Assembly (NCBI GenBank): GCA_016839845.1
Contig: JAEOTL010000345.1
Coordinates: 1-64,000 of the forward strand
DNA length: 64,000 nt
Reading direction: 5' to 3'
Source: Promethearchaeota archaeon
GTDB lineage: Archaea > Asgardarchaeota > Lokiarchaeia > Sigynarchaeales > SOKP01
The position numbers were made by a program, and so were the translations under genes. The stretch's first letter is position 1. Every line of letters starts with the position of its first letter. Shown here piece after piece: positions 28,658 to 34,266 of this stretch. Under the pieces are notes generated by a model. The model had not been told where the DNA came from, made no database searches, and saw nothing but the letters and a program-made list of their open reading frames with translations.

Positions 28658-30094
28658 TCAGTAATTTAATCCTTTAAAATATTGGACTGTCGTATACATA
28701 TGTTTTCCTTTTTTTCGTAAATAATCCATTGCTTCTTCAATTCCCTCAATAGTTAGGTCAAACATTGGGATAATACTTGAGATTATCTTTCGCGTCCATG
28801 GAGACCACTCTGGTCGAATAAGTTCCGGATTTAACCACACTACATTATCCTTGAAATGTTCAGCGAGTTCTCTAATATAGTAGATACCTGGCATTTCATT
28901 TCTGTGATAATAGTAAATGCTTCCATATTTCTCGGTCAATTCCCAACTTGCCATTGCAGCATCACCAACGCAGACCACTTTATAAGAACTGTCGTATTTT
29001 TGCAAAAATTCATTAAAGTCTATTGATTCGTCAGGATTCCTTCTAGCATTGTTGTAAAGGCTCTCGTAAATGCAATTGTGATAATAATAGTATTTAAAGT
29101 CCTTGAAGTGTGACATCTTATTTGCGGCGGAAAAAAGAAGGTTCACAAGGCGAGCATAAGGCGTCATACTCCCCCCAACATCCATTAAAAGAATAAGTTT
29201 TATTTCGTTTTTTCTCCGTTTGTCAAATACTATCTCGAGGTCCCCCGCGTTTTTCGCAGTTTTATCAATCGTTTGATCTAAATCAAGTTCATCCCGCTTT
29301 CCTATTTCTTCAAGTTTTTTCAGTCGTTTAAGAGCAACCTTTATCTGTCGGGTGTCAAGAACGATATCCTTCCGATAATCTTTAAAAATTCGCTTTTCAG
29401 CAATTTGGACAGCAGTTCGCATACCAGCTCCACCCCCGATTCTCATACCCATCGGATTTTCCCCAGAATGCCCGAAAGGGGAGGTTCCTCTGGTACCTAT
29501 CCATCGATTCCCAAAGTTATGCTCTTCATCCTGTTGTTGCATCAATTCTTCTAGCCGTTTTTGCAATTCTTCAAGGTTTGTGAACTGATCGCCCATTTCT
29601 TGCATAGCACCAATCTCAGCCAGAGCGTTGAGGTTGTCTTGAAGCCATTGCATTATTTCATTCTTGATATCCTCGGGAGCGTTTGCCATGAGCATACCTT
29701 CTAGCTTATCACCATATTTTTCAAGAAGTTCCTCAAGCAACTCCTTGATATCAACATCCGAGAGATATTGTTGATATTCTTTTATGAGAAGTTCGAGCCC
29801 CTCCATGAGTTCAGGAAGAGAAATAGGTTTTTGTAACCAATCCCAGATTTCCTGCTTAAAATCTTCGGGGAACTGTACCATAGCATTTTTAAAGAAGTTT
29901 GCAAAGGAAATATCGAAGATATCAAAGTGGTGCTCGTTCTTACAGAGGATTGAGCGGGAAGTATAGTAAAATTCAACCATGTTGTGGATGAGTCCCTTAC
30001 TAAGGGCTTCAAGCAAGGTCATATATTCGGTGATACTTACAGGCAACCTTTCTTTCAAATAATAGAAAAATTCGACAAACATGTCTTTCCTCAT
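28658..30094 (-). CDS. CoxE-like VWA-domain protein (COG3825 type)
   Basis: A 478-residue protein. The N-terminal half is helical and Glu-rich (about 10-195). The segment GTSPFGHSGENPMGMRIGG (about 203-221) is a hallmark of the CoxE-like VWA group. The C-terminal VWA domain shows the metal-ion-dependent adhesion site DVGGSM (305-310), with further metal contacts expected near the later VCVGDAAM. In bacteria the gene is paired with a MoxR-type AAA ATPase, the two forming a chaperone for metal centres. No MoxR gene is present in this window. It is convergent with the B12-radical SAM gene, 7 bp apart. Confidence 0.85.
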   Translation of the reverse strand: MRKDMFVEFFYYLKERLPVSITEYMTLLEALSKGLIHNMVEFYYTSRSILCKNEHHFDIFDISFANFFKNAMVQFPEDFKQEIWDWLQKPISLPELMEGLELLIKEYQQYLSDVDIKELLEELLEKYGDKLEGMLMANAPEDIKNEIMQWLQDNLNALAEIGAMQEMGDQFTNLEELQKRLEELMQQQDEEHNFGNRWIGTRGTSPFGHSGENPMGMRIGGGAGMRTAVQIAEKRIFKDYRKDIVLDTRQIKVALKRLKKLEEIGKRDELDLDQTIDKTAKNAGDLEIVFDKRRKNEIKLILLMDVGGSMTPYARLVNLLFSAANKMSHFKDFKYYYYHNCIYESLYNNARRNPDESIDFNEFLQKYDSSYKVVCVGDAAMASWELTEKYGSIYYYHRNEMPGIYYIRELAEHFKDNVVWLNPELIRPEWSPWTRKIISSIIPMFDLTIEGIEEAMDYLRKKGKHMYTTVQYFKGLNY

Positions 30095-30210: not shown

Positions 30211-30753
30211 ATGATTACAATACGAATTATTATGAAAAATCACGTAGATATTTGCCCAATATGTGAGACTCAGGGCATTTTTAATCGTACAAATACAAAA
30301 AATAGTCGTGTTCATCTTCGAACTATTGGATATTCGGGAAGATTCATTACAAAACTCTGTAATACATGTTTAAACAAAATTGATTCAGATTTAATGAAGG
30401 GAATTCAACCGAAATTATACGGTCGCGGATTTGAAGTAATCGTGTATTGTCTCCCTATTCATTTTTATGAAATTAGAGATCAATTGCCAAACATAGATGA
30501 TTATATGCGTAATGCATTGCGTTTTATTAATAATATATATATGGGATTCATAAAAATACCAGCTAAATTCAAAGTTTTTTATGACTTCGCAGCATTAATT
30601 AACCTCCTCGATGCTAGAAATTTGATAAATGAGAAGGAAGATCTTATACGTATCTTACATATTAAATATCCGGATCACATAGATGAAATTCATGAGAAAT
30701 GTGCAGAAATCTTAAATTGGGAGAAAAAAATGAATTATTCAATATCTAACTAA
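30211..30753 (+). CDS. zinc-finger-like protein of unknown function
   Basis: A 180-residue protein. C15 and C18 (CPICE) with C49 and C52 (CNTC) make a likely four-Cys zinc site in an N-terminal module containing basic residues (RTNTKNSRVHLRTIGYSGRF). The rest (about 60-180) is mostly helical. I do not recognise the family. The ATG at 30211 is favoured by the TATA spacing; ATG at 30232 would drop seven residues. It is divergent from the VWA gene. The region just downstream holds the GC-rich structured island. Confidence 0.6.
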   Translation: MITIRIIMKNHVDICPICETQGIFNRTNTKNSRVHLRTIGYSGRFITKLCNTCLNKIDSDLMKGIQPKLYGRGFEVIVYCLPIHFYEIRDQLPNIDDYMRNALRFINNIYMGFIKIPAKFKVFYDFAALINLLDARNLINEKEDLIRILHIKYPDHIDEIHEKCAEILNWEKKMNYSISN

Positions 30754-30775
30754 CATATTAATATAAAAAATTAGT

Positions 30776-30959
30776 TCAATAGCACACACTCGTGCTATTG
30801 AGAGTGACAGGCTAAATTGGTCGCCCGAAAGCACCCCACGTACACCCCCCACCTCACCCACCCCGTCTTTTACGGGTTCCACTCACGAAATAAGATTGGA
30901 TTAATCTGAGATGATCATGCATCTTTCAATACACAATTTGTTTGCTAGCGATTGCCTGT
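30776..30959 (-). ncRNA. candidate structured RNA in a GC-rich island
   Basis: In a very AT-rich genome this gap is strikingly GC-rich between about 30780 and 30890. It holds a perfect 10-bp stem TCAATAGCAC/GTGCTATTGA with a 6-base loop (30776-30801), a 5-bp stem CCCGT/ACGGG (30862-30876), complementary pairs GAGTG/CACTC (30802-30806 with 30880-30884), and a long-range pair ACAGGC/GCCTGT (30807-30812 with 30954-30959). On the minus strand the 10-bp hairpin is followed by a T6 run, like a terminator, and a TATA-like element lies at about 31013-31020. A minus-strand RNA of about 200 nt is therefore inferred. It does not match RNase P RNA, SRP RNA, tRNA or C/D-box RNA by eye. Confidence 0.4.
30834..30864 (-). 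other. canonical G-quadruplex motif
   Basis: The minus strand has four G runs of 4, 3, 6 and 4 with loops of 1, 6 and 7 bases. This satisfies the standard G3+N1-7 rule. Such a motif is unexpected in sequence this poor in G and C, and it lies inside the candidate structured RNA. Confidence 0.75.
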
Positions 30960-31095
30960 TCAATTATAGTCGACGATCCATTTATTAAGTGAAGTAGTAA
31001 TGATTAGAAACAACTTATATAAGGAGAATTCACCTATATTAAGATTGTATATTTTCTATTTTTAAATTCAAGAAAAAAATATCAGCCTATATATC

Positions 31096-32073
31096 ATGCC
31101 AGATGGGCAACTTACAACAGATACGGTCAAGAAGTTAATAAATTCTAGAAAAAAGAAGAATCTTGTCAAGGACATATTCTTAAAACTAAAGCATTCAGGG
31201 AATGATCTTCAAGATTTTAATGAATTCTTGGGGGAATTGATGAAGGTAGATAGTTCTTATATCATAAATGAAATCTACTATGAAATCCGCGAGAAAGCTT
31301 CAAAAATTCTTAGTTTTAATAATATATTAAAAATGGATGAAATTATTTTAGGAAATTATATACATAGTGAACGGGAACAGTTTATAACATCATTTAAGGG
31401 AAGCCTTGAGATAATTGGTGCGCGTATCGAAGGATATTTAGTGCTAACGAATTTAAGAATAGCAGGTGTAGGAATTGTAAAACGTAATCTTTCGGATGAA
31501 ATCTATTATTGGAATGCAGCTGTACTAGGGGGTTTGCTCGGAGCGACAGTGGCTAAAAAAGTTATCAAAGAAAGGGTGAAAAGAGGGGATTCAGTTCAAT
31601 GGGCATTTAATAGAGATATGAGGAACATATTTTCCGATGAAGAACTTCATAAATTTAATTATAATTTTCCAATAATAAGAGTTTATGATATTAAAACTAC
31701 GTTCGAAAGTTTGTCATATTATATCAAACTTAAATATGAGCATGAATTTGGATTAAAAGCAGTACGCATTCGAATCACACCCCAGCGAGAAAAAGTTGAA
31801 ACCAAAAGAATGTTTGCAACTAGAAGAAATGAAGTGTTAGAAAGGATTGAGGAGGTTTTACTCAGGACTCAATTATTAGATGATTATAAATTTGAGAAAC
31901 CTCCTAACACACTGTTTTTAATGCGAACCTCAAAAGAGATAAATAATAAGGGGGAGGAAATTATCAATAAAATATGCGCACATTGTGGGGATATGAATAA
32001 TTTCACCAAGCCAGAAGTTAATATCTTTAAATGTTTGAGATGTGGAGCTAAACACCATATGCGAGATTATTAA
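31096..32073 (+). CDS. GRAM/PH-like protein with C-terminal zinc ribbon
   Basis: A 325-residue protein. The N-terminal 85 residues are helical and basic. The middle (about 86-250) reads as a beta-rich module with GYLVLTNLRIAGVGI, the pattern of GRAM/bacterial PH domains, interrupted by a short Gly/Ala-rich hydrophobic stretch (AAVLGGLLGATVAKK). C294, C297, C313 and C316 form a C-terminal zinc ribbon. Lipid or protein binding is possible; the function is unknown. A palindromic TTATATAA lies about 80 bp upstream. It follows the GC-rich island. Confidence 0.6.
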   Translation: MPDGQLTTDTVKKLINSRKKKNLVKDIFLKLKHSGNDLQDFNEFLGELMKVDSSYIINEIYYEIREKASKILSFNNILKMDEIILGNYIHSEREQFITSFKGSLEIIGARIEGYLVLTNLRIAGVGIVKRNLSDEIYYWNAAVLGGLLGATVAKKVIKERVKRGDSVQWAFNRDMRNIFSDEELHKFNYNFPIIRVYDIKTTFESLSYYIKLKYEHEFGLKAVRIRITPQREKVETKRMFATRRNEVLERIEEVLLRTQLLDDYKFEKPPNTLFLMRTSKEINNKGEEIINKICAHCGDMNNFTKPEVNIFKCLRCGAKHHMRDY

Positions 32074-32215: not shown

Positions 32216-33349
32216 ATGAAATCCACACCAAAAAGAAAACTAATTCTATTACTTATTTTAGGATTCGTTTTTGGATATTCACAATCAATTAGGGATGTAT
32301 GTGATAGAAGATCCTCATACAAAGAATGTGATGATGCTTTTATTACTAAGTTAAATCTATCTAAAGTTTCGCGTAGAATCCACATTGTTAATAATTGGTC
32401 TGATACGAAGGCTGCAGGACTCTGCACTGGTTCCGGAAGCTATGTCGACCCTTATGTTATTGAAAATTTGATGATCGATGGGGGAGTATCAGAATCTTGT
32501 ATTTTGATTGAAAATTCAACCGTCTATTTTAAGATTGAAAATTGTACTGTGTATAATTCAACTGAAAACAACATGGTGGGTATCCTCTTATCTCATGTCA
32601 ATAACTCCTTGTTGATTAACAATAATAGTTCCTCAAACGAAGGGGGAATTATCTTACGTTATTGTAGTAATAATACCATTGTAAATAATATAGTCACTAA
32701 CAATTCTTTTGGGATAATTTTGTTTAGGAGTAGTAATAACAGGATTTCGGAAAATTATGTGAATGAGAATTACAATGGAGAGGGAAGTATTGGACTGATA
32801 AAAAGTCATAACAATACCATTTCGGGAAATTATGCTAGTGATAATCGTGAAGGAATAGATTTATGGGAAAGTCATGATAATCTCATTACAGAGAATACTC
32901 TGGAGAATAATAACGCGGGAATTAGAATAAGTGAAAGTGATAACAACATAATTAGCCAAAATAACCTCACGAGTATTCCCAGATTTAATGGGATTCTATT
33001 GGGATCTGGAAATTTCAACTTAATTTACCTTAACTGCCTCACTACTTTCATTAATGCCAAGGATTACGGTTTTAATAATTCGTGGGACAATGGCATAAAA
33101 GGAAATTATTGGGACGATTATAGAGGTTCAGATGATGATAACAATAGAATTGGTGACGTTCCATATGAAATCTTTTTTAGCAATGGAAGCCAAGACAACT
33201 TCCCTTTGATGAATTGTCCACTCCCTCTAACTGAAGGGGATGAAGGAATTATGTGGTATGATATACTCACCCTAATTGGCAGTTTAGCTCTTGTTATAGT
33301 TATCACGGGATTTATAATTCAAAAACAGAGGAAAACTAGAGTAAAATAA
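32216..33349 (+). CDS. NosD-like right-handed beta-helix surface protein
   Basis: A 377-residue exported protein. A signal sequence (KRKLILLLILGFVFGYS, about 6-23) precedes an N-terminal module with AAGLCTGSGSYVDPYVIEN. Residues about 95-300 contain PbH1-type repeats with the pattern N-N-x-I-x-x-N, typical of NosD/CASH beta-helices. C-terminal GNYWDDYRGSD is also common in NosD proteins. A final transmembrane segment (about 348-368) with a basic tail anchors it, so the helix faces outside. Many N-x-S/T sites suit glycosylation. It is paralogous to the genes at 33490 and 52605. Carbohydrate or surface-layer functions are possible. Confidence 0.85.
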   Translation: MKSTPKRKLILLLILGFVFGYSQSIRDVCDRRSSYKECDDAFITKLNLSKVSRRIHIVNNWSDTKAAGLCTGSGSYVDPYVIENLMIDGGVSESCILIENSTVYFKIENCTVYNSTENNMVGILLSHVNNSLLINNNSSSNEGGIILRYCSNNTIVNNIVTNNSFGIILFRSSNNRISENYVNENYNGEGSIGLIKSHNNTISGNYASDNREGIDLWESHDNLITENTLENNNAGIRISESDNNIISQNNLTSIPRFNGILLGSGNFNLIYLNCLTTFINAKDYGFNNSWDNGIKGNYWDDYRGSDDDNNRIGDVPYEIFFSNGSQDNFPLMNCPLPLTEGDEGIMWYDILTLIGSLALVIVITGFIIQKQRKTRVK

Positions 33350-33489: not shown

Positions 33490-34266
33490 ATGAAATTCAC
33501 TCTAAAAAGAAAACTAACATTTTTACTTATTTTAGGGTTCAGTTTTGGAGTCTCAGGTATAATTAATGATACCAACTATATAGGTTCGGTATATAGAGGT
33601 AATGATACCTTAAACTTTGAATATTTAGAAATCTCAACAATATCGGGGAAGATTCATATAATCGGTAATTCAGGTTGGGTTGATTTTAGAAATGCAGGAA
33701 ATTGTACGGGCTCAGGTACTTATTCTGATCCTTATGTCATAGAAAATTTAGTAACAAATGGTATCTTGATTGAAAATTCAAGCGTCTATTTTAAGATTGA
33801 AAATTGTGTTGTCCATAACTCCTATTGGCGTTATGGAGGAATCCTTTTAGTTGATGTTAATAATTCCCAATTGATTAATAACGATAGTTCATCTCATCAC
33901 AAAGGAATATCCTTGCTCCTTAGTAATAATAATACTATTTCGGGAAACTTCTTAAATAATAATTATCAAGGGATAGATTTGTGGTATAGTAATAATAACG
34001 TCGTTTCAGGAAACTCTGCAAACAACAATAGTTACGGGATCTTTTTAGAAAGAAGCAATTGCAGTATAATATCAGGAAACAATTTTATTGGAAATGATGT
34101 TTGTATCAAAGAAACTGATTGCGAAGGTAATATTTTTGAGAATAACATTTGTAGGGGGGAATCACGAATTCCTGGATATAATTTACTCTTTCTATTTACT
34201 ATCCTAATTGGTGTAATAATGTTGATTAAAAAAAAGGCTATGAAGCATGCCCTAAAAAGAAAATAG
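33490..34266 (+). CDS. NosD-like beta-helix surface protein, shorter paralogue
   Basis: A 258-residue paralogue of the preceding gene. Its signal sequence KRKLTFLLILGFSFG and the module AGNCTGSGTYSDPYVIENL are close to the first copy even at DNA level. The PbH1 repeat region (about 110-215) is shorter. Residues about 226-246 form a C-terminal transmembrane anchor with a basic tail. A tandem duplication followed by loss of repeats is inferred. Confidence 0.82.
   Translation: MKFTLKRKLTFLLILGFSFGVSGIINDTNYIGSVYRGNDTLNFEYLEISTISGKIHIIGNSGWVDFRNAGNCTGSGTYSDPYVIENLVTNGILIENSSVYFKIENCVVHNSYWRYGGILLVDVNNSQLINNDSSSHHKGISLLLSNNNTISGNFLNNNYQGIDLWYSNNNVVSGNSANNNSYGIFLERSNCSIISGNNFIGNDVCIKETDCEGNIFENNICRGESRIPGYNLLFLFTILIGVIMLIKKKAMKHALKRK

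Follow-up and report, generated by a model that had tools for sequence, protein, structure and literature searches.

A GC-rich intergenic island in a lokiarchaeal genome is a probable truncated copy of a 23S rRNA gene 3′ end

Introduction

Does a GC-rich, hairpin-bearing island between two protein-coding genes of an archaeon encode a new structured RNA, or is it a displaced part of something already known? The island lies between plus-strand open reading frames (ORFs) of 180 and 325 amino acids in a 64,000-nucleotide stretch of DNA (the window), and the initial annotation had read it as an undescribed RNA carrying a G-quadruplex. The host is a lokiarchaeon, as indicated by a VWA protein (28658–30094) whose best segment is 83% identical to its counterpart in a Lokiarchaeota metagenome-assembled genome. 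Unusual forms of 23S rRNA are described in two reports: in Pyrococcus furiosus, helix H98 is excised and a 129-nt piece comprising H99–H101 results (PMC7758197), and circular 23S rRNA occurs in archaea, Asgard members included (PMC12918454).

Sequence features and identity of the island

The GC-rich core, at approximately 30796–30882, occupies less than the whole intergenic gap (Table 1) and holds the highest 60-bp GC content of the window (0.65 at 30823, against a window mean of 0.338), beyond all maxima of 40 simulated windows (average 0.594, highest 0.633). The 10-bp perfect hairpin with its T6 tail, the second hairpin and the four G runs fitting the G-quadruplex rule were likewise found where they had been described, all on the minus strand. 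A hairpin scan recorded two perfect 10-bp hairpins in the 64 kb, with a T tail at the island hairpin only, and the island is the sole window match to the strict G-quadruplex rule (G3+, loops 1–7), although 7 of the 40 simulations contained a chance match to the rule as well. Folding z-scores were modest and similar between strands (−2.23 minus, −2.02 plus). The TATA-like site near 31016, TTATATAA, is present as described; no evidence was found that it is a dedicated promoter of a minus-strand RNA, and it may instead serve the plus-strand ORF that starts at 31096, ending 73 nt before its ATG.

Table 1. Features of the island and its immediate neighbours, in window coordinates
Feature	Position	Strand	Remarks
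Truncated copy of 23S rRNA 3′ end (H99–H101 and 23S 3′ terminus)	30777–30877	minus	Rfam and BLAST
Perfect 10-bp hairpin	30776–30801	minus	Loop of 6; corresponds to 23S 3′ terminus and flank
T6 run behind hairpin	30765–30770	minus	Begins 5 nt past stem
Second hairpin, CCCGTAAAAGACGGG	30862–30876	minus	Helix H99 of 23S rRNA, from structure line of Rfam alignment
G runs fitting G-quadruplex rule	30834–30864	minus	Pattern scan; strands of H99–H101 in aligned rRNA structure
Palindromic TTATATAA	31015–31022		Possible TATA box of plus-strand ORF at 31096, by inference
Neighbour ORF, 180 aa	30211–30753	plus	No Pfam match; convergent with copy
Neighbour ORF, 325 aa	31096–32073	plus	No Pfam match; divergent from copy

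A default Rfam scan and a tRNA scan of the window returned no match, with no rRNA match at gathering level. A permissive Rfam scan of 30700–31100 (401 bases) gave a significant covariance-model match to the archaeal large-subunit rRNA family RF02540 (LSU_rRNA_archaea), positions 2891–2969 of 2987 aligning with 30877–30796 on the minus strand (26.9 bits, E 3.7e-6); the default scan missed it because this score falls below the family cut-off (gathering score 50). In BLAST, 103 columns of the piece aligned with the 23S 3′ end of a related genome, G005 (87% identity, E 2e-29), and positions 21–120 of the 23S-end query H99end matched it at the same identity; detectable homology with the G005 end terminates at 30877. 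Queries for the 23S gene body, the sarcin–ricin exon and the trailer did not match the window, H99end alone doing so, and further copies of the island within the window amounted to weak, chance-level matches only.

The island thus shares with the archaeal 23S 3′ end both the sequence and the secondary structure of positions 2891–2969, whereas it holds only the last part of the molecule, scores below the family cut-off and has no detectable gene remainder in the window; being truncated, it is excluded as a 23S gene. The perfect hairpin before T6 has an imperfect version in intact 23S ends. Of the original proposal, derivation from a structured, stable RNA in the minus-strand sense stands; its novelty does not, since the island matches RF02540 and the 23S genes of related Lokiarchaeota, and agreement with a known RNA family was an outcome that the initial annotation had itself named as a refutation.

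Conservation of the window copy

At 52 letter positions invariant among 25 intact 23S ends, the window copy departs at four, two of them within 43 core columns. When each intact end is in turn withheld from the set, it shows zero to three departures at invariant positions. Of 24 model pairs the window copy can form 20 (20–23 in intact ends), and its extra G has a parallel in the intact end of G010, which also has an extra base there. Over the same stretch of the model, the intact end of G005 scores 59.0 bits, an isolated copy (L019) 33.2 and the window copy 26.9. The departures and the low score suggest that the window copy is drifting or decaying; the range among intact ends, the extra base of G010 and pairing within the intact range keep this short of proof. 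Isolated copies elsewhere range from six with no departure in the 43 core columns to one, in G007 (L118), with six; some copies are therefore recent or under constraint, the former six retaining every core position.

The genome bin G010 itself (L096, L097) contains a divergent-type 23S end together with an isolated one that is of G005 type, and may be mixed.

Truncated copies in related genomes

A 171-nt query for the 23S end found 71 places in 41 of 65 genomes of the same GTDB family, with more than one place in 13. Besides that of the window, truncated copies occur in 12 other genomes. In 25 related genomes H99–H101 stand in place behind the preceding exon, and a separately encoded copy is therefore not needed; a split 23S rRNA with H99–H101 encoded apart was accordingly set aside. 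Outside the family, in the same order, a mosaic copy from G067 used as query matched at 6 places in G067, 11 in G136 and 2 in G134, which may include real 23S ends. In a comparator class of 58 genomes, 38 had a match, at 39 places in total. Each of these starts from query position 1 or 5, and no 5′-truncated copy was seen, but identity outside G066 is only 69–84%, so that short copies could be missed.

Dispersal concerns the 3′ end: in 11 genomes searched the 23S gene body was not dispersed, its 14 places (in 10 genomes) starting at the gene 5′ end or reaching its 3′ end. The two shortest, one of 104 nt in G006 and one of 46 nt where a G029 contig begins, are both 5′ pieces. Measured against each genome's own or best 23S end, the 5′ ends of the copies scatter from −35 to about +223. 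Many 3′ ends fall near a T-run, at about +230 to +275, and several, that of the window copy included, are cut shorter. A trailer motif preceding the T-run was found, together with that run, in 8 of 12 genomes, whereas its reversed control occurred in none. Leader–trailer duplexes were predicted for six genomes, and in five of them the motif pairs with the 23S leader; G020 has a different trailer. The predicted pairing resembles a pre-rRNA processing stem, in which we would tentatively read a bulge–helix–bulge site.

Several loci have peculiarities of their own. The 104-nt 5′ piece in G006 (C1:2757814–2757917; 97% identity) occurs in a record titled chromosome in which no whole 23S gene was found, and may be an assembly join. 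The 23S gene of G005, to which L009 also belongs, is split close to the A-loop (L048:9352–9987, minus). The insert carries an ORF for a LAGLIDADG endonuclease (Pfam LAGLIDADG_3, E 3.1e-9), and the last exon, also in L048, runs from the sarcin–ricin loop through ES39 and H99–H101 to the trailer. Mosaic 23S ends occur in Sigynarchaeum G067 (L135:1490–1680, minus), where a sarcin–ricin word and a gap precede H99–H101, and apparently in G020 (L104:2335–2545, minus), where, judged by eye, sequence upstream of an isolated copy resembles short pieces of the A-loop, sarcin–ricin loop and ES39 with the rest missing. G034 has two 23S ends (L081:187–447 and L081:3628–3879), which match the G005 query at 100% identity throughout H99end but have clearly different trailers. 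In the window, two adjacent related genes (32216–33349 and 33490–34266), the first with a Pfam match to NosD/beta-helix, have relatives that also lie near 23S-end copies in L083, L092, L094 and L019.

Origin and placement of the copies

We regard the island as most likely a truncated lokiarchaeal 23S 3′ end, copied and set between unrelated genes by duplication or recombination and probably without a dedicated function. Its homology, the absence of a detectable 23S remainder in the window and the similar truncated copies in relatives are observed directly, as are the recurrence of the copies, their specificity for the 3′ end and their enrichment behind stop codons. DNA duplication or recombination around the 23S 3′ end and its downstream flank would have produced the copies, and rearrangement would have scattered them; the window copy would be unable to act as rRNA alone and probably serves no dedicated purpose.

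The position of the copies relative to genes was assessed for 48 copies compiled by hand from 12 genomes and the window. Left out of this set were self-matches; isolated copies of G010 and G033; matches outside the trailer or in unrelated sequence (L081 3432, L086 3446, L092 378, L100 6611, L019 7791 and 7826, L117 5038, L120 6156); extra pieces of counted copies (L104 2324, 2361 and 2592; L120 1462); and, for G029 and G040, the reference copies used in place of a 23S end that the stretches compared did not include. The upstream ORF is co-oriented for 30 of the 48 (p 0.11), a weak tendency overall. For 19 copies, of which 16 involve no overlap, a co-oriented ORF has its stop codon at most 32 nt ahead of the copy or runs into it. 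Random placement gave an average of 2.6 such cases and a maximum of 11 in 5000 trials; the expectation is rough, the null being drawn from the entire non-ORF space of these loci, with rRNA and copies included.

This enrichment bears on a more purposeful account, in which the 23S terminus and its trailer, with the 3′ strand of the processing stem and the T-run, are a portable 3′ end retained as a terminator or RNA-processing tag, the window copy being perhaps a worn member. Besides the 19 copies at or behind co-oriented stop codons, the account draws on the 3′ ends that mostly lie near the T-run, on the motif preceding that run and its empty reversed control, and on the presence of copies around ORFs of the Ras family (G005, G029) and TPR ORFs (G005, G040). 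Against it stand the weak overall co-orientation, the several copies that stop short of the trailer and the window copy itself, which lacks the trailer motif and is not linked to a gene: the ORF upstream of it points away, at a distance of 218 nt, so that it ends no minus-strand ORF. On balance we regard it as unlikely. In a more specific form, Lokiarchaeota would have copied the 23S 3′ end, up to the trailer strand and T-run, behind protein genes as a terminator or splicing-endonuclease tag, possibly pairing in trans with the 23S leader, with the window copy as one of them in shortened form; to this we give a low though appreciable probability. The chances of a portable 3′ end are raised slightly by the six isolated copies that show no departure at the 43 core positions.

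Integrative elements at tRNA genes offer a model for a different origin, by which elements recombined into the 23S end and restored it, leaving the displaced end as a direct repeat further along. In the mapped loci L048, L081, L083, L090, L107 and L117, copies close behind the 23S gene share its orientation, and several copies retain the 3′ part, as this would lead one to expect; their scattered 5′ ends, however, point to no single crossover, and phage and plasmid collections held no meaningful match, which leaves such a scar quite improbable. A phage or plasmid origin was rejected as well, the search giving 10 phage records at 20% of the query (E 4), no plasmid match and the shared pattern in none of the viral contigs.

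Animal genomes contain rRNA-derived SINEs, dispersed and truncated copies that spread by reverse transcription. Dispersal and truncation of rRNA-derived copies are common to both cases, and reverse transcription from the 3′ ends of pre-23S RNA would fit the dispersal of the 3′ terminus alone and the variable 5′ ends beside often common 3′ ends. The lokiarchaeal copies differ in that they cluster near the source gene and in that a reverse transcriptase domain (RVT_1) was found in only 2 of the 12 related genomes searched, which may be incomplete; these points weaken a SINE-like retroposon, which we rate as very improbable.

An expressed, stand-alone 23S 3′ piece, whether part of a split rRNA, a decoy or a small RNA, is just as improbable. 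The perfect hairpin and T6 could terminate a minus-strand RNA, the six isolated copies without core departures are compatible with a retained role, and the H99–H101 piece of P. furiosus, bounded by the excised H98, offers a precedent (PMC7758197). That piece corresponds to the same rRNA end, and the longest lokiarchaeal copies start near the base of ES39/H98. In P. furiosus, however, the piece is RNA made from an intact gene (PMC7758197), whereas the island is a separate stretch of DNA. H99–H101, moreover, are in place in the 23S gene of 25 related genomes, and no orthologous copy was found at the window site, because among 65 genomes the 180-aa neighbour is without relatives, and distant matches to the 325-aa one occur in just 10; neither ORF matched in 37 loci around the VWA gene.

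The undescribed G-quadruplex RNA first proposed has a negligible probability: the minus strand does contain four G runs that obey the sequence rule, but these are rRNA helix strands inherited from intact genes, chance matches to the rule occur in simulated windows as well, a known family matches and no supporting evidence for a functional quadruplex was found at the island.

Implications

With the preferred reading, a truncated 23S copy, one supposed new G-quadruplex RNA proves to be a false candidate. The case also shows that no GC-rich island should be named new until Rfam has been scanned permissively, below threshold. Stray 23S ends can also mislead rRNA annotation. In the titles and opening parts of abstracts of literature on fragmented Asgard 23S rRNA, archaeal rRNA pseudogenes, dispersed rRNA fragments, Asgard 23S pseudogenes or introns and integration into 23S genes, no such copies are described, most subscription papers and preprints lying outside this coverage. 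In Lokiarchaeota, by contrast with what that literature shows, the 23S 3′ end recurs in truncated copies that are enriched directly behind stop codons, and these bear on how transcripts end, how rRNA is processed and how the sequence behind the 23S gene is rearranged in these archaea.
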